Shown one piece after another: positions 3,566-33,542 of a DNA stretch of 39,968 nt. Position numbers and translations under genes: made by a program. The DNA comes from Candidatus Rokubacteria bacterium CSP1-6 (GTDB lineage: Bacteria > Methylomirabilota > Methylomirabilia > Rokubacteriales > CSP1-6). The DNA is taken from assembly GCA_001443385.1 (NCBI GenBank), contig LDXP01000016.1:1-39968 (forward strand), read 5' to 3'. A model generated the notes under the pieces. That model searched no databases, was not told where the DNA came from, and saw nothing but the letters and a program-made list of their open reading frames with translations. Every line of letters starts with the position of its first letter. The first letter of the stretch is position 1.

Positions 3566-4006
3566 ATGAAAGCGCTGGCACCCTGGACAGGCTTCACAAC
3601 CCTTCAGAAGGAGATCGACCGGCTGTTCGAGCGCTTCTGGGAACCCAGGTGGGACGAGTTCCCGGCCCTCGCCGGGGAGTGGACCCCCAGCCTGGACCTC
3701 TCCGAGACCAAGGACGCCCTGGTGGTGAAGGCTGAGATCCCCGGGATCGACCCGAAGGAGATCGAGGTGTCCCTCCAGGATCAGGTCCTGACGATCAAGG
3801 GGGAGAAGAGGCAGGAGAAGGAGGAAAAGGACGAGCATTACTTCCGCATGGAGCGCTCGTACGGGGGCTTCGTGCGGAGCATCCGCCTGCCCGTGCCGGT
3901 GGACGGCAGCAAGGTCAGCGCCACGTTCAAGAACGGGCTGCTGACGGTCAAGCTGCCCAAGACGCCGGCCGCCAAGGGCACGACCATCCCGGTCAAGGCG
4001 GAGTAG
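3566..4006 (+). CDS. Hsp20/alpha-crystallin small heat-shock chaperone
   Basis: 146 residues. Seen: an N-terminal arm rich in aromatic residues, then the alpha-crystallin domain from about residue 40 (PSLDLSETKDALVVKAEIPG, KDQVLTIKGEKR-like strands, GGFVRSIRLPVPVD). The diagnostic GLLTVKLPK motif follows, then a short C-terminal extension ending in TIPVKAE, which carries the I-x-V oligomerisation motif. ATG 3566 is preferred over the GTG at 3548 because a strong Shine-Dalgarno (AAGGAGGAG) lies 6 nt upstream of it. The family holds unfolding proteins in the cytosol without ATP. It precedes the archease-rtcB RNA repair pair with only 22 bp between, so co-transcription during stress is plausible. 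Confidence 0.95.
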   Translation: MKALAPWTGFTTLQKEIDRLFERFWEPRWDEFPALAGEWTPSLDLSETKDALVVKAEIPGIDPKEIEVSLQDQVLTIKGEKRQEKEEKDEHYFRMERSYGGFVRSIRLPVPVDGSKVSATFKNGLLTVKLPKTPAAKGTTIPVKAE

Positions 4007-24324: not shown

Positions 24325-25272
24325 ATGAGAGCGGGAACGATCCTAACGCTCTTCCTGCTGGCTCTCGGCTCAGACGCATTCGCGGAACCGGTCCGGCTCT
24401 ACGTCACCAACCTGGGAGGCAACACGCTCTCGGTGATCGACGCCCGGGCCCTCAAGGTGACCGGAACGATCGCCACGGCGCAGGATCCCCACTTTGCCGT
24501 CCCGACGCCGGACGGCCGGCGGCTCTACGTCACCATGGCCGGAGCCGACCAGGTCTGGGTCTTCGAGACGGCGAGCGACAAGGTCGTCGCGAAAATTCCT
24601 CTCGGGCTCAGGCCCACCCATCTCGCCATGGCCCCCGACGGGAGATTCGTGTACGCGAGCCTGGAGACCTCCCAGGAGGTCGGTGTGATCAGCACGGGGA
24701 CGAACCGGGTCGAGGCCAAGATCCCCACCGGGCCCGAGCCCCATATCACCTCGGTGTCACGGGACGGGAAGGTCGTCTACGTGGGAGGGGCCGAATCCCA
24801 CCAGATCTTCGTCATCGACCCGGCGGCCCGCCGCCTCGTGGACCGGATCCGGGTGGGATTCCTCCCTCATCTCGCCGTCTTCTCCCCCGACGGCCGGCGC
24901 GCTTGGGCCAGCAGCACGGGCTCCAACGAGCTGTCGGTCATCGACACCGCGACCCGGGCGGTCGTGGGGAGGATCGACGTGGGGCTGAACTCCCACGGGA
25001 TGGCCGTGGCCCCCGACGGGCGCACGCTCTACGTGGCGAGCGAGGTGGGCAACAAGGTGCTCGTGGTGGACACCGAGAGCCGACGGGTCGTCGGGCAGAT
25101 CCCGGTCGGAAAGATGCCCCACACCATGGTCCTCTCGCGCGACGGGGCTTACGCCTACACCGCCGACATGGAGGCCAACGCGATCTCGGTGATCTCCACG
25201 GCGAAGCGCGCGGTGGTGGCAACGATCCCGGTGGGTCAGGCGCCGTCCTCGATCGCGATTGTGGAGCGCTGA
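24325..25272 (+). CDS. YVTN-family beta-propeller protein, secreted
   Basis: 315 residues. Seen: a signal peptide (to AFA-EP, about 21), then about seven repeats of the YVTN/YncE type (LYVTNLGGNTLSVIDARALK, LYVTMAGADQVWVFETASDK, LYVASEVGNKVLVVDTESRR, each with PDGR between). The fold is a seven-bladed periplasmic propeller. Relatives occur with nitrite or nitrous oxide reductases and quinohemoproteins. It starts 3 nt after the response regulator stop and precedes the CuA-4Fe-4S fusion by one base, so it is probably part of the same operon and a partner of the copper/redox proteins. Confidence 0.9.
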   Translation: MRAGTILTLFLLALGSDAFAEPVRLYVTNLGGNTLSVIDARALKVTGTIATAQDPHFAVPTPDGRRLYVTMAGADQVWVFETASDKVVAKIPLGLRPTHLAMAPDGRFVYASLETSQEVGVISTGTNRVEAKIPTGPEPHITSVSRDGKVVYVGGAESHQIFVIDPAARRLVDRIRVGFLPHLAVFSPDGRRAWASSTGSNELSVIDTATRAVVGRIDVGLNSHGMAVAPDGRTLYVASEVGNKVLVVDTESRRVVGQIPVGKMPHTMVLSRDGAYAYTADMEANAISVISTAKRAVVATIPVGQAPSSIAIVER

Positions 25273-25273
25273 C

Positions 25274-27088
25274 GTGCGGGCGCGCTTGGCGGGGATCGCG
25301 CTGCTGGTGGCCCTCGGCGGCGGGTTCCTGCTCTTCACGGGCTTTTTCGTTCACCCTCAGGGCGGCCGGGAGGTGGAAGTGCCGCTCACCGTCCAGAAGT
25401 TCGCCTTTTCGCCGGGGCGAGTCACCGTCGAGGCCGGGGACCGGGTGACGTTCAGGATCCGGTCCCTCGACATCACCCACGGCTTCAGCGTGGAGGGGAG
25501 GGGAATCGACGCCACGGTGCTTCCCGGCCGGGAGGTTCGCGTGACCGTTCCCGCGGAGCACCCCGGCAAGATCCGCTATCGCTGCTCCGTCATCTGCGGG
25601 CCGCTCCACCCGTTCATGGTAGGGGAGATCGTCGTCCGGCCCAACCGCTGGCCACTCTGGGGTGGCGGTCTGGCGCTGGTCGTGGGGCTCCTCGCCTCGG
25701 CGGCCGTGGGCCGCCCGGGCCCGCGCCGCGACCTGCTCGGCTGGCGGCCGCTCCGCTGGCTCCTCACGCGCCGCCCGCTCCAGTTCGCCCTGATCGCGCC
25801 GAACTTGCTGGCCTTCACCCTCATCGTCCTCGCCGGCCTCGTCGGGACGGCCACCGGGGCGATGAACTTCTCGACGATCTTCGTCTGGCTCGCGTGGTGG
25901 GGGCTCCTGGTGCTCTTTCTCATCCCGCTCGCGGGGCGGGCCTGGTGCGCCATGTGCCCGATCCCGGCGCCGGGCGAGTGGCTCGCGCGGCGGGCGATCG
26001 TCGAGCGGAGCGAGCGCGCGTTCAGCCTCGGCTGGGCGTGGCCCAAACGGCTTCAGAATCTCTGGCCGGCCTTCGGCGGCCTCCTCGTGCTCGTGCTCTT
26101 CGGTCTCATCGTGACGACCCGGCCCCTCGTCACGGCGCTCCTCCTGCTGGGGCTCGCCCTGGTGGCGCTGGTGACCCACCTCCTCTTCGAGCGGCGGGTC
26201 TTCTGCCGCTACCTCTGCCCGGTTGGCGGGCTGCTTGGGGTCTACTCGATGGCGGCATCCCTGGAGCTTCGCGCGCGAGACCTCGACGTCTGCCGGGAGT
26301 GCCGGGAGAAGGCGTGCTTTCGTGGGGGGGAGGGCTATCCGTGCCCGACGTTCCAGTTCCCGGGAGGCGGCATGACGCGGAACACCTACTGCCTCCTGTG
26401 CACCGAGTGCCTGAAGGCCTGCCCGTACGATAACCTCGCCCTCAGCCTCCGCCCCTTCGGCGCCGACCTGCTGGTCGCCCGGGGGCGCCGGGCCGACGAG
26501 GCGTGGATCGCGCTCCTCCTCCTGGGGACGGCGCTCGCCCACTCGGTGATCAAGCTCGGGCCGTGGGGATGGATCAAGTCCTGGGCGAACCTCGAGGGGA
26601 CCCCGGAGTTCCTCCTCTATGCCACGCTCTTCCTCGGCACGGTCCTCGTCGCGCTCCCGGCGCTCCACTTCCTCACGGCGTGGCTCTCGCGCACCGTCGC
26701 CGGGGCGCCGCGCGTGAAGCTCGGGAGGCTTTTCGTCGATTACGCCTACGCCCTGATCCCGCTGAGCCTGGCGGCGTGGATGGCCTTCACGCTGGCGGTG
26801 GTCCTGCCGAACCTCTCCTACATCCCGCGGGTGCTCTCCGACCCGCTCGGGTGGGGCTGGGACCTCTTCGGGACGCGGGAGACGACGTGGACGTGGGTGC
26901 CGCTCGGCGTTCTGCCCTGGGCCCAGCTCGCCCTCTTGCTCGTCGGGCTCTGGGGCTCGATCCGGGTGGGGCACACGATCGTCGGGGACGCGCTGGGAGA
27001 CCCCAGCGTTGTCCGGCGCGGCCTGGCTCCCCTCGTCATCTTTCTGGTGGCCATCGCCTGGGCCTTCCTGGCCCTGTACCTGGGGTGA
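25274..27088 (+). CDS. CuA cupredoxin fused to NosR/NapH-like 4Fe-4S membrane protein
   Basis: 604 residues. Seen: a membrane anchor (4-25), a periplasmic cupredoxin domain (35-120) with full CuA ligands C-S-V-I-C-G-P-L-H-P-F-M (Cys104, Cys108, His112, Met115) and His69. About ten membrane helices follow. Between helices are AWCAMCPIPAPGEW, FCRYLCPVGG, CRECREKACF and CLLCTECLKACPYD, the cysteine pattern of NapH/NosR/CcoG-type proteins with 4Fe-4S clusters. GTG 25274 is chosen because it follows the propeller stop by one base. I infer electron transfer between quinol or cytosolic donors and a periplasmic copper site. The fusion of a CuA domain in front of such a protein is unusual to me. Confidence 0.85.
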   Translation: MRARLAGIALLVALGGGFLLFTGFFVHPQGGREVEVPLTVQKFAFSPGRVTVEAGDRVTFRIRSLDITHGFSVEGRGIDATVLPGREVRVTVPAEHPGKIRYRCSVICGPLHPFMVGEIVVRPNRWPLWGGGLALVVGLLASAAVGRPGPRRDLLGWRPLRWLLTRRPLQFALIAPNLLAFTLIVLAGLVGTATGAMNFSTIFVWLAWWGLLVLFLIPLAGRAWCAMCPIPAPGEWLARRAIVERSERAFSLGWAWPKRLQNLWPAFGGLLVLVLFGLIVTTRPLVTALLLLGLALVALVTHLLFERRVFCRYLCPVGGLLGVYSMAASLELRARDLDVCRECREKACFRGGEGYPCPTFQFPGGGMTRNTYCLLCTECLKACPYDNLALSLRPFGADLLVARGRRADEAWIALLLLGTALAHSVIKLGPWGWIKSWANLEGTPEFLLYATLFLGTVLVALPALHFLTAWLSRTVAGAPRVKLGRLFVDYAYALIPLSLAAWMAFTLAVVLPNLSYIPRVLSDPLGWGWDLFGTRETTWTWVPLGVLPWAQLALLLVGLWGSIRVGHTIVGDALGDPSVVRRGLAPLVIFLVAIAWAFLALYLG

Positions 27089-28508: not shown

Positions 28509-28979
28509 ATGGGCAAGCATCGGATGAAGCAGCCTCCGCCGCGACGCCCCGTGTGGCGCCGGGTGGTGCTCGGGGCCATCATCGTTGGGGCCGTCGCCGC
28601 CGGGGCCGCTTGGTGGCTCTCAGAGGCGGTGGACGTTTCCGGCGGGACGCCGCGGCTCGTTCTCGACCGCGAGGTGGTGGACCTCGGCTCTCTTCCCTTC
28701 GAGGCGCCGGTGAGGGTCGTCTTCACCCTGACCAACAGGGGGAACGGCTCCTTGAAGCTCGCCGACGTGCCGCGAGTCAAGGTCCTCAAGGGCTGCTGAC
28801 CCCCCGAGGCGGTCGTCGGTCAGACGACCATCCGGCCGGGGCGCTCGACGACGCTGACCCTGAACTTCACGATGCACGAAGGGATGGGCGGCGCCCATGA
28901 GTTCCTGGTTCCGCTCAGGACGAACGATCCCGCCGGCGAGCGGCCGCTCATCGTCCGCTCCTACTGGGGGCCGCGGTGA
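28509..28979 (+). CDS. Membrane-anchored DUF1573-like protein, probable selenoprotein (Sec97)
   Basis: 156 residues if UGA at 28797-28799 is selenocysteine. Seen: a basic start, one membrane helix (about 19-40), then a beta-rich ASH/DUF1573-like domain. That domain has LVLDREVVDLGSLPFEAPVR, FTLTNRGNGSLKLADV, then KGC-U-PPEAVV, IRPGRSTTLTLNFTMHEGM and LRTNDPAGERPL. The UGA interrupts this domain, whose second half continues in frame. Related domains carry a short cysteine motif here, so Sec replaces a likely Cys (Cys96-Sec97). A SECIS-like hairpin follows at 28811-28829. The next gene starts with GTG overlapping the far stop (GTGA at 28976), which implies ribosomes reach it. Periplasm-facing metal or redox chemistry is inferred. 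Confidence 0.82.
28811..28829 (+). promoter_or_regulatory. SECIS-like hairpin 2 downstream of in-frame UGA
   Basis: GGTCGTC-GGTCA-GACGACC: a perfect 7-bp stem with loop GGUCA. The stem starts 11 nt and the loop 18 nt after the UGA, exactly as in hairpin 1 (15775-15793), while the stem sequences differ. That is compensatory conservation of structure and loop, as expected for SelB binding. Confidence 0.85.
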
Positions 28980-29257
28980 TCCGGGTCGAGGTCTACAGCA
29001 AGCGCGACTGCTGCCTCTGCGAGGAGGCGAAGGCGGTGCTCATCAAGGTCCAACGCGAGATCCCCTTCGACCTGCACGAGATCGACGTCGAATCTAGGCC
29101 GGAGCTCTACGAGACCTACAAGGAACGGATCCCGCTCATCCTCATCAACGGGCGTCCAGCCTACAAGTTCCGGGTGGACGAAGCGGCCCTGCGCCGGCGC
29201 CTCGCCAGGGAGCACGGCCGCGCGCCCGAAGGGAGGCTCGACGCGATTGTCGAATGA
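28976..29257 (+). CDS. Glutaredoxin-like (DUF836-type) thiol protein
   Basis: 93 residues, cytosolic. Seen: strand VEVYSKRDC, the redox motif C-C-L-C (Cys12, Cys13, Cys15, a C-x2-C with an extra Cys), helix EEAKAVLIKV, then EIDVESRPELYETYKERIPLILINGR with the cis-Pro (IPLI) of thioredoxin folds. GTG 28976 overlaps the stop of the UGA-containing gene, a sign of translational coupling. It may reduce thiols or the Sec protein's partner, though the Sec protein's domain appears to be on the other side of the membrane. Confidence 0.88.
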   Translation: MIRVEVYSKRDCCLCEEAKAVLIKVQREIPFDLHEIDVESRPELYETYKERIPLILINGRPAYKFRVDEAALRRRLAREHGRAPEGRLDAIVE

Positions 29258-29408: not shown

Positions 29409-29861
29409 ATGAAACGGTTCCTGAGTGTAGCGCTTCCAGTGACCGCCGTCATTCTGCTGGCCGGCGTGGCTTTCGCCCAGATGGGCGGCCCGATGGCCGG
29501 CGGCATGGGCGGGGGGATGATGGGCCCCGGCATGATGGGCGGGGGGATGATGGGTGGTGGGATGATGGGTCAGGGCGGCCAGGCCGGCCAGTCGAACTGC
29601 CCCGGCATGGCGGCAAGCGGCCAGCAGACTCCGGCGACTCAGATCACCGAGGACAAGGCCAAGGAGCTGGCCCAGCAGTACGCGAACCAGTACCTCAAGG
29701 GCTTCACCGTCGAGAAGGTGCTCCCGTTCACGGGGATGCACGGCACGATGTACTCCGTCGAGTTGAAGGGACCCCAGGACGAGGTTCGTACGTTCCACAT
29801 CAACCCGTGGGGCAACGTGATGCCCTTCGGCGGCCCGCAGCGGATGGGTCGAGCTCGCTAG
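29409..29861 (+). CDS. Met-rich secreted protein with PepSY-like domain
   Basis: 150 residues. Seen: a signal peptide (MKRFLSVALPVTAVILLAGVAFA-Q), then a Met/Gly-rich segment (about 24-58, repeated GGGMM and GPGMMGG) with one Cys-Pro-Gly-Met. A globular C-terminal half (75-150; ITEDKAKELAQQYANQYL, MYSVELKGPQDEVRTFHINPWG) has the helix-plus-sheet pattern of PepSY-type domains. Methionine clusters of this kind bind Cu(I) in periplasmic proteins. Behind a sigma-54 promoter and before a strong terminator (29882), it is its own transcription unit. Copper buffering in the periplasm is inferred. Confidence 0.85.
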   Translation: MKRFLSVALPVTAVILLAGVAFAQMGGPMAGGMGGGMMGPGMMGGGMMGGGMMGQGGQAGQSNCPGMAASGQQTPATQITEDKAKELAQQYANQYLKGFTVEKVLPFTGMHGTMYSVELKGPQDEVRTFHINPWGNVMPFGGPQRMGRAR

Positions 29862-31027: not shown

Positions 31028-31207
31028 ATGGAAGAGTTCATCAGGAGCTACGGGATCTGGATCCTGCTCGCTGGCGTGTTCTTCGCCATGCACCGGTTTG
31101 GGATGGGGTGCGGGGGCGGCCATCGCCACGGCTCCCAAACGGAGGAGACTCCAGCGAAGCCTGGCGAGGAGAAGAAACGGTCCGCCCACTCGGGCGGCTG
31201 CCACTGA
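31028..31207 (+). CDS. Small membrane protein with His/Cys-rich tail
   Basis: 59 residues. Seen: one membrane helix (about 7-24; [14 protein letters not shown]), then [12 protein letters not shown] and a Lys/Glu tail ending SAHSGGCH. The layout (single helix then CGGGHRHG) is like DUF2933-type small metal-locus proteins; the protein at 34199 is similar. Metal binding by His and Cys is likely. It sits between a sigma-54 promoter and the Cu ATPase gene, 13 nt before the latter. Confidence 0.75.
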
Positions 31208-31220
31208 TCCTCTCTCAGCC

Positions 31221-33542
31221 ATGAAGACCGAGCAGCGGACGTTCGGGATCAGCGGGATGCACTGCGCCGGATGCGTCTCGAAGGTCGAGTCGGCGGTCGG
31301 GGCGCTCCCTGGCGTGACGCAGGCGGTCGTGAGCCTCGAGCCGGGGCTGGCCCGGGTTCGGTTCGATCCGTCCCGGGTCGAACCGGCGGCAATCGCCGGG
31401 GCCATCGGGGAACTGGGCTACGCCGTCGAGGAGCGCCTCGAAGGCCAGGCCGCGCTCGACCGCGAGCAGGCGCTCCGCCGTGCGGAGATCCGCCGCCAGG
31501 GCCGGTGGATGGCAGTGGCCTGGCCGCTGGCGCTCATCATCATGGCCGGGACGTTCCGCGAGTACTGGATCCTGCCTTCCTTGATCCCGGAATGGCTCGG
31601 CCGCCCGTTCGTCCTCTTCCTGCTCGCCACGCCCGTCGTGTTCGGCCCGGGATGGCAGTTCTTCGTCCAGAGCGCCCGGGGCCTCGTCCGGGGCGTGGCG
31701 GACATGAACCTCCTCTACGCGACCGGGATCGGGGCCGCCTACCTCATCGGGGTTCTCAACACGTTCTTCCCCGCGGCGGGCTTCGGGGGCGAGAAGGCGA
31801 TCTTCTTCGAGTCGGCGGTGCTGCTGACGGCGTTCATCATCCTCGGGAAGTACCTGGAGGCGCTCACGCGAGGGCGGACGTCCGAGGCCATTCGCAAGCT
31901 GATGCGCCTCCAGCCCAAGGTGGCGCGGGTCGTCAGGGACGGCGAGGAGCGGGAGGTGCCGGCGGAAGAGGTCGAGGCGCGCGATGTCATCGCCGTCCGG
32001 CCGGGCGAGCAGATCCCGGTGGACGGCCTTGTCCTCGACGGCTACTCCGCCGTGGACGAATCCATGCTCACCGGCGAGAGCCTGCCGGTGGAAAAGCAGG
32101 CCGGCGCCGTCGTCATGGGCGGGACGCTGAACAAGACCGGGACGTTCCGGTTTCGCGCGACCAGGGTCGGGAGCGAGACGGCGCTGGCGCAGATTATCCG
32201 GTTGGTGGAGGAGGCCCAGGCCTCCAAGGCCCCCATCCAGAAGCTCGCGGACTGGGTGGCCGGTCACTTCATCCTCGGGGTCCACGCTCTCGCGCTCGCC
32301 GTGTTCGTGTTCTGGTTCCTCCTGGGATACCGCCTCTTTTTCGACCCGGCCTCCGCCTTCATGCTCTCGCCGGCGAGCCTGGGGGAGATCGGCGTCTTCG
32401 GCTTCGCCCTCCTCCTGTCGATCACCGTGCTGGTGATCTCCTGCCCCTGCGCCGTGGGCATGGCCACCCCCAGCGCCATGATGGCCGGGACGGGCAAGGG
32501 GGCCGAGCACGGGGTCCTCTTCAAGGGCGCCGACGCGATCGAGGCGACGACCAAGATCCGGACGGTGATCTTCGACAAGACCGGCACCCTCACGCGCGGG
32601 GAGCCGTCGGTGACCGACGTCCTGCCGGCGGCCGGCATCCTGCGGGAGGAGCTCCTGCGCTGGGCGGCCGTGGCCGAGGTCGCCTCCGAGCATCCCCTGG
32701 GCGAGGCCATCGTCCGGGCGGCGCGCGAGGGCGGGGTCTCTGTGGAACGCCCCGAGTCGTTCCAAGCCATTCCCGGCCACGGCGTGGAGGCCGGCTGGCG
32801 GGGGCGGAAGATCCTCCTGGGCACGCGAAAACTCATGGCCCTCCGCGGAGTGGAGGTGAGGGACCAAGAGGAGCGGCTCCAGGCCCTGGAGGACGGGGGG
32901 AAGACGGCGATGCTCGTGGCCGTGGACAGTCACCTGGCGGGGATCGTTGCCTGCGCCGACACGCTGAAGCCTTTCGCGCGGGAGGCGGTGGCGGGGCTCC
33001 GCCGGATGGGGCTCGAGGTCCTCATGCTCACCGGCGACAACCAGCGGACGGCGGCGGCGATCGCCCGCATGGTGGGGATCGACCGGGCGCTGGCCGAGGT
33101 CCTCCCGGAGGCCAAGGCGGAGGAGGTCGCGCGGCTGCAGGCTGAGGGAAGCGGCGTCGCGATGGTGGGCGATGGGATCAACGATGCCCCGGCGCTGGCC
33201 CGGGCCGACGTGGGGATCGCGATCGGCTCGGGCACCGACGTCGCCAAGGAGACCGGCCACGTGATCCTGATCAAGGACGACCCTCGCGACGTGGCGGTCG
33301 CCCTTCAGATCGCCCGCGCCACCATGCGGAAGGTTAAGCAGAACCTCTTCTGGGCCTTCGCCTACAACACCCTGGCGATCCCCATCGGTGCCGGCCTTTT
33401 CTATCCGGTCTTCAAGCTCGTGGTGAGCCCCGAGCTGGCCGCGCTCCTCATGGCGGTCAGCTCGCTCACCGTGACGTTCAACACGCTGCTTCTGAAGGGG
33501 TTCGTCCCGCCGTCGAAGCGGGCGAATCAGATCCGGAAGTAA
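31221..33542 (+). CDS. copA: Cu(I)-exporting P1B-type ATPase
   Basis: 773 residues. Seen: an N-terminal HMA domain with GMHCAGC (Cys15, Cys18), eight predicted membrane helices, [10 protein letters not shown], the transmembrane metal motif CPC (Cys408-Pro-Cys410), [12 protein letters not shown] with Asp452, SEHPLGEAI (the HP motif of P1B pumps), [13 protein letters not shown] and [20 protein letters not shown]. The CPC motif with downstream [11 protein letters not shown] and [15 protein letters not shown] is of the Cu(I) type. It pumps Cu(I) from cytosol to periplasm for detoxification or oxidase assembly. It is probably transcribed from the sigma-54 promoter at 30963, which would be an unusual control for a copper pump. 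Confidence 0.96.

Follow-up and report, generated by a model that had tools for sequence, protein, structure and literature searches.

The window, the whole 39,968-nucleotide stretch of Candidatus Rokubacteria bacterium CSP1-6 analysed here (contig LDXP01000016.1), holds at 28509–28979 a gene with an in-frame UGA that very probably encodes selenocysteine (Sec), followed by a hairpin and lying in the same stretch as several genes that match copper-protein families. The features discussed below are these:

16021–17553, + strand: multicopper oxidase, a farther neighbour (NCBIfam copper_res_A 1e-73, under the curated cut-off)
25259–27088, + strand: membrane polyferredoxin (NapH/MauN-like, Fer4_5) fused to a cupredoxin (NapH/MauN and cupredoxin models)
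28509–28979, + strand: probable selenoprotein gene, 156 residues including Sec97 (UGA-spanning alignments A1 and A2)
28551–28619, + strand: predicted membrane helix, residues 15–37, following a Lys/Arg-rich amino terminus (helix 15–37 in the AlphaFold2 secondary structure)
28644–28976, + strand: predicted Ig/ASH/PapD-like β-sandwich of DUF1573 type, residues 46–156, spanning the UGA (AlphaFold2, Foldseek, Pfam)
28794–28799, + strand: TGC TGA, the Cys96–Sec97 pair within Gly-Cys-Sec-Pro-Pro (invariant in 20/20 rows of A1 and 14/14 of A2)
28811–28829, + strand: putative bacterial SECIS (bSECIS) hairpin, 7 bp stem with a GGUCA loop (fit to the bSECIS model in PMC13188914; covariation)
28869–28898, + strand: conserved loop and strand T-M122-H-x-G-M126-G-G-x-H130, candidate metal ligands (A1 and A2)
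28976–29257, + strand: glutaredoxin-like (DUF836) gene (Pfam Glrx-like, 2.2e-17), its GTG start inside the terminal GTGA
29409–29861, + strand: exported Met-rich (MGGGMMGG) protein, conserved near six other loci
31098–33542, + strand: copper-translocating P1B ATPase with an N-terminal HMA domain (NCBIfam ATPase-IB_hvy 633 bits and IB1_Cu 569 bits, both over cut-off)

Direct reading of the letters places the start codon ATG at 28509, the UGA at 28797–28799 immediately 3′ of the Cys codon (28794–28796), and the final stop TGA at 28977–28979; automated gene calling closes the open reading frame at 28799. An earlier note on this sequence had drawn attention to the gene, and its coordinates, UGA, hairpin and GTGA overlap all proved exact. 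Read through, the product is MGKHRMKQ...VLKGC-U-PPEAVVGQTTIRPG...FTMHEGMGGAHEF...RTNDPAG...WGPR (156 residues), whose carboxy-terminal domain would, by the positive-inside rule, lie on the extracytoplasmic (periplasmic) side of the membrane. We refer to it and its relatives as GCU proteins, after the Gly-Cys-Sec motif.

Homologues were sought in the whole genomes of 95 members of the phylum, and then in a wider profile search and a phylum search. The protein occurs in 22 of the 95; one copy (G074) starts past the site owing to a contig end, and the remaining 21 each contain a single internal stop, TGA, at the identical codon. Outside the phylum the same in-frame TGA recurs in G151, G231 and G142 (wider profile search) and in G396 (phylum search), so that the proposal of a probable selenoprotein is now backed by an identical UGA in every site-spanning homologue, 21 within the phylum and four beyond it. 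All of these continue past the UGA and retain the carboxy-terminal half, and neither a second stop nor a frameshift was found in any homologue. G151 is the only genome of its phylum and its copy is nearly Rokubacteria-like; transfer and misbinning are both possible sources. No relatives were found among plasmids or viral contigs. A scan of genome contigs with one protein as query yielded a single near relative, L009, which is probably the same contig as L011 (31,743 bases each). Across the 14 diverse members of A2, Gly-Cys-Sec-Pro-Pro, M122, M126 and H130 are unchanged, and His123 varies (Pro in L028, Thr in L063, Asn in L092). Cys homologues aligned to the UGA are usual for bacterial selenoproteins, though not obligatory, and the earlier note had expected them here as G-C-C-P-P; this expectation was not borne out in about 480 distinct sampled genomes, where every member carries Sec, and since that sampling is non-exhaustive, ‘always Sec’ is a statement about the sample. 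With no Cys form found, the family would escape the common search method that relies on Cys/Sec pairs.

Both halves of the domain bear the marks of coding-type selection. In codon alignments of 20 members, the nonsynonymous/synonymous ratio of single-step codon differences is 1.18 for the N-terminal region, falls to 0.56 for the part of the domain that precedes the UGA and to 0.36 for the part that follows it; the downstream half is therefore under protein-coding constraint at least as strong as that upstream. AlphaFold2, run on the family alignment, models the blocks from residue 51 on confidently, with pLDDT 93–97 for the strands on either side of the UGA, in agreement with the original suggestion that the codon splits a β-domain; termination there would thus leave half a β-sandwich.

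The hairpin begins 11 nt after the UGA, with its loop (GGTCA, 28818–28822) 18 nt after it, and its arms GGTCGTC (28811–28817) and GACGACC (28823–28829) pair at all seven positions. A published bSECIS model asks for a loop of 3–9 nt with G in one of its first two positions, a stem of 4–16 bp, a loop 16–37 nt past the UGA and a minimum free energy of at most −7.5 kcal/mol (PMC13188914); the element lies within all of these limits, its 31-nt core reaching −15.7 kcal/mol, with folding z-scores of −2.2 and −2.7. An Rfam scan of the window at the gathering threshold gave no match. SECIS-like stems of at least 7 bp at an allowed spacing follow 51 of the 427 + strand TGA triplets in the window (~12%), and because they are so common in this GC-rich DNA the hairpin by itself is weak evidence, which we do not accept as proof. 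Of synonymous recodings that preserve the encoded protein, ~11% again give 7/7 pairs.

Conservation of the element across genomes is more telling. The hairpin covaries: among 20 distinct sequences, 99.3% of hairpin cells are paired, with two-sided changes at three pairs. The covariation score is 0.202; shuffles average 0.060, none of 500 reaches the observed value, and slid-partner controls stay at or below 0.059; as the sequences are related, such shuffle counts are not probabilities, though pair changes still occur in at least three lineages. The stem of G231 and G396 is compensated (GGTTGTG/CACAACC), that of G142 reads GGTGATC/GGTCACC with the encoded residues also altered (VVGQTT to VIREVT), and in G020 the innermost pair is A–T. 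Synonymous differences at the hairpin codons V102, V103, T106 and T107 occur in 0–10% of pairs, against a mean of 47% elsewhere. It is this comparative pattern (shared TGA, helix covariation, frozen synonymous sites and coding-type selection after the UGA) that stands far beyond chance.

The genome is also equipped to use the codon. A lack of selenocysteine machinery would have counted against the gene; tRNA-Sec (70.9 bits), selB (385 bits) and selA (515 bits) are all present on contig C69, and selD (335 bits) on contig C32 (L141, G000:C32:6933-7874). An in-frame TGA lies within selD, as in known SelD of the Sec type, and SelD of this genome is therefore probably a selenoprotein itself. Co-occurrence of the gene with tRNA-Sec within the phylum was tried as evidence and set aside as uninformative, 79 of the 95 genomes having a tRNA-Sec match over the cut-off. 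Matches of unusual length (~97–103 nt) or additional, weaker tRNA-Sec-like matches were seen in G026, G032, G034, G035, G071, G092 and G094.

Two other readings of the UGA have to be weighed against Sec. If it really terminated translation, the protein would consist of the 96 N-terminal residues and the rest would be a decaying or unexpressed frame; the automated call at 28799 and the abundance of comparable hairpins in this DNA are in keeping with that, but selection of coding type is stronger after the UGA than before it, the downstream frame is intact in all homologues, the hairpin covaries and the domain would be halved, and we regard this reading as very improbable. Decoding as Trp or Gly, or by unspecific read-through, has precedents in the UGA read-through and reassigned codes that occur elsewhere; UGA, however, terminates this and many neighbouring genes, and a full Sec machinery and a SECIS element are in place, leaving such decoding barely credible. 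The start of the glutaredoxin-like gene within the selenoprotein stop had been taken to make sense only if ribosomes pass the UGA. The overlap exists, but it is supportive rather than decisive, because a GTGA or ATGA overlap with the glutaredoxin-like gene was seen at just three of the inspected loci (this one, L012 and L013) and in the closest relative, L011, the body of that gene is lost, its 3′ end alone remaining past the selenoprotein stop (after position 1974); we accordingly dropped it as a decisive argument. Decoding as Sec by SelB and tRNA-Sec, directed by the hairpin, in a protein of membrane-anchored DUF1573-type architecture thus remains the reading in which we have high confidence, on comparative sequence grounds.

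The assignment to a DUF1573-like family holds. The window protein scores 29.8 bits against Pfam DUF1573 (PF07610; gathering cut-off 26.1), all 14 rows of A2 match the same model (E ≤ 0.01), and profile–profile comparison (hhalign) with classical DUF1573 proteins gives a probability of 99.3%. Foldseek matches include HYDIN, the Porphyromonas protein 2qsv and PapD-like Ig/ASH domains; a sequence search of the PDB returned weak HYDIN and 2qsv matches only. Classical DUF1573 proteins (PF07610, C-G-C-T) share the fold and the N-x-G-D and N-D-P signatures with the GCU proteins, but have neither Sec nor the TMHxGMGGxH loop. The earlier note put the Cys–Sec pair where related domains carry their short cysteine motif, which is correct in part: in the profile alignment the pair lies near C-G-C and Cys96 falls on the second Cys, but the first Cys is gone and Sec97-Pro98 form a two-residue insertion after it, so Sec is no simple replacement of a classical Cys.

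A Sec-bearing DUF1573 type is already known, and appears in PMC9312934 and PMC13188914 with no motif other than UGC. Its NCBIfam counterpart, OS_HP2 (NF041425, U-G-C), is associated with work on Olavius symbionts (ref. 60 in PMC13188914). The best NCBIfam match of the UGCT protein L113 is to this model (88.8 bits, under the curated cut-off of 100), which suggests that NF041425 describes the catalogued UGC family. OS_HP2 and GCU proteins have in common the Ig-like DUF1573 domain and a UGA-encoded Sec in an equivalent loop region; in OS_HP2 it is the first Cys of C-G-C-T that gives way to Sec, whereas in GCU proteins that position is Lys, Glu or another residue, the second Cys (Cys96) is kept and Sec follows in the insertion ahead of Pro. 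Identity of the two was rejected on this position of Sec, on the NF041425 scores (16.5 for the window protein and 0–43 for its relatives, maximum 42.7) and on phylogeny, the GCU set forming a single clade (support 100/99) apart from CGCT and UGCT DUF1573 proteins. Against the GCU profile, GCU members outside the phylum score at least 143 bits and the best other sampled scores are at most 66 bits; those of the latter that were read are CGCT, UGCT or other DUF1573-like sequences. U-G-C-T DUF1573 selenoproteins are widespread in the sampled phyla (L070, L075, L076, L083, L084, L107, L108, L113 and L114), and the two forms, U-G-C and G-C-U, occur together in G020.

A catalogue of 119 selenoprotein families published in 2026 (PMC13188914) does not contain the GCU motif, a statement that does not extend to Deng et al. 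2026, the groundwater survey in which 63 selenoproteins are predicted in one Methylomirabilota genome (PMC13188914) and which may mention the GCU protein already. The sequence comparisons give good support to the GCU proteins being a new subfamily, distinct from the known UGC type, on a scaffold already known to bear Sec. If so, Sec can be carried by the DUF1573 scaffold in a second way, and an entire selenoprotein subfamily is cut short by standard annotation, in Rokubacteria/Methylomirabilota as well as in two or more further phyla.

The neighbouring genes point towards copper. The genome encodes three copper P1B ATPases that exceed the cut-off, of which the one in the window is the nearest to hand, and homologues of the polyferredoxin flank the selenoprotein gene at six other loci, including that of G396 in another phylum, whose copy has no cupredoxin match. 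Among 21 loci, a Cu-ATPase lies near eight and a member of the cupredoxin–polyferredoxin family near seven (union 11), counts that come from related genomes and hence are not independent. At L127 the gene lies beside an RND pump of Cus-like type and a fusion protein; an HlyD_D23 fusion protein, an outer-membrane channel and a cupredoxin lie near it at L124, and a CsoR-type repressor at L135. Copper genes are absent near five of the inspected loci (L121, L125, L126, L138 and L139). The Met-rich protein matched no family in the family-model scan. A YncE-like β-propeller gene at 24325–25272, conserved next to the cupredoxin–polyferredoxin gene, resembles lactonase-type nitrous-oxide reductase in part, its score of 113 bits falling far short of the cut-off.

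We propose tentatively that the GCU protein handles Cu(I) in the periplasm. The Cys–Sec pair and the invariant Met122, Met126 and His130 would form a soft-metal site at one end of the sandwich, where strand alternation would place both the Cys–Sec and the Met/His loop. There the protein would take up or hold Cu(I) and hand it to a partner, be it an efflux pump, a multicopper oxidase or a respiratory cuproenzyme, and the selenolate could afford tight, readily reversible binding and easy re-reduction. The fuller scheme, in which an obligate-Sec family bears a periplasmic selenolate Cu(I) site (Cys–Sec plus Met/Met/His on the Ig-like DUF1573 scaffold) and the cupredoxin–polyferredoxin supplies it with reduced copper, is rather doubtful. 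Should the copper role hold, an extracytoplasmic, selenium-based copper site would give bacteria a concrete reason to retain Sec.

The main rival is thiol/selenol redox chemistry, in which the pair would cycle through a vicinal selenenylsulfide, as the GCUG tail of animal thioredoxin reductase does, and would exchange electrons with thioredoxin-fold proteins of the periplasm or aid cytochrome c maturation, the copper neighbours being incidental. Cytochrome c maturation genes lie near seven loci, those of G142 and G396 included: CcmF near six (this window, L122, L123, L128, L133 and L134), DsbE-like genes at four, CcmH-like genes at four and CcmE at L129. The next gene at L138 is a DsbA-like thioredoxin, the gene studied here overlaps a glutaredoxin-like one, and selenoproteins known to date are mostly redox proteins (PMC13188914). 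Redox alone, however, leaves the invariant Met122, Met126 and His130 unexplained, and the glutaredoxin, besides its loss in L011, is predicted to be cytosolic whereas the Sec domain is predicted to be periplasmic. The same ligands might instead serve mercury, organomercury or another soft metal: adjacent C-U is known in other, unrelated selenoprotein families, several of them metal-related (HgcA, the MerB-like SaoL, a CopZ-type protein and MbdU in the 2026 catalogue; PMC13188914), but the family models matched by the neighbours (pump, multicopper oxidase, cupredoxins, Cus-like system) indicate copper, and no mer or hgc gene was found among the scanned neighbours. Because five loci are without copper genes, L138 has its DsbA-like neighbour and cytochrome c maturation genes recur, we hold copper handling as a provisional first choice short of an even chance, the redox role as a possibility to be taken seriously, and another soft metal as unlikely.

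Partial analogues of the copper reading exist. CcoG, which reduces cupric ions, has an Ig-like domain in the periplasm whose function is unknown (PMC7558416), and the combination of membrane polyferredoxin and extracytoplasmic Ig-like domain is met here in two neighbouring genes, 25259–27088 and the selenoprotein gene; the neighbour, however, matches NapH/MauN and cupredoxin models and no CcoG model, so that homology to CcoG is unsupported and the likeness is one of analogy only. With PCuAC and CusF (PMC7558416) the GCU proteins share Met/His ligands (candidates in the GCU case), a small periplasmic β-domain and a copper gene context, but those proteins use Met/His without Cys–Sec on other folds, and no homology of the GCU protein to either was found.

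At L129 of G396, a PCYCGC-motif protein (3587–3931; PF13798, a family with known Sec members) is encoded ahead of the GCU gene, and CcmE lies on its far side. Within the window itself, 15146–16036 is another probable selenoprotein gene, likely the first one counted in the earlier note, for an F510_1955/Ycf48-type β-propeller, in which read-through of the UGA at 15761 (NPDCF-U-GWKLV) adds 91 residues with equal propeller repeats and a 9-bp hairpin follows.
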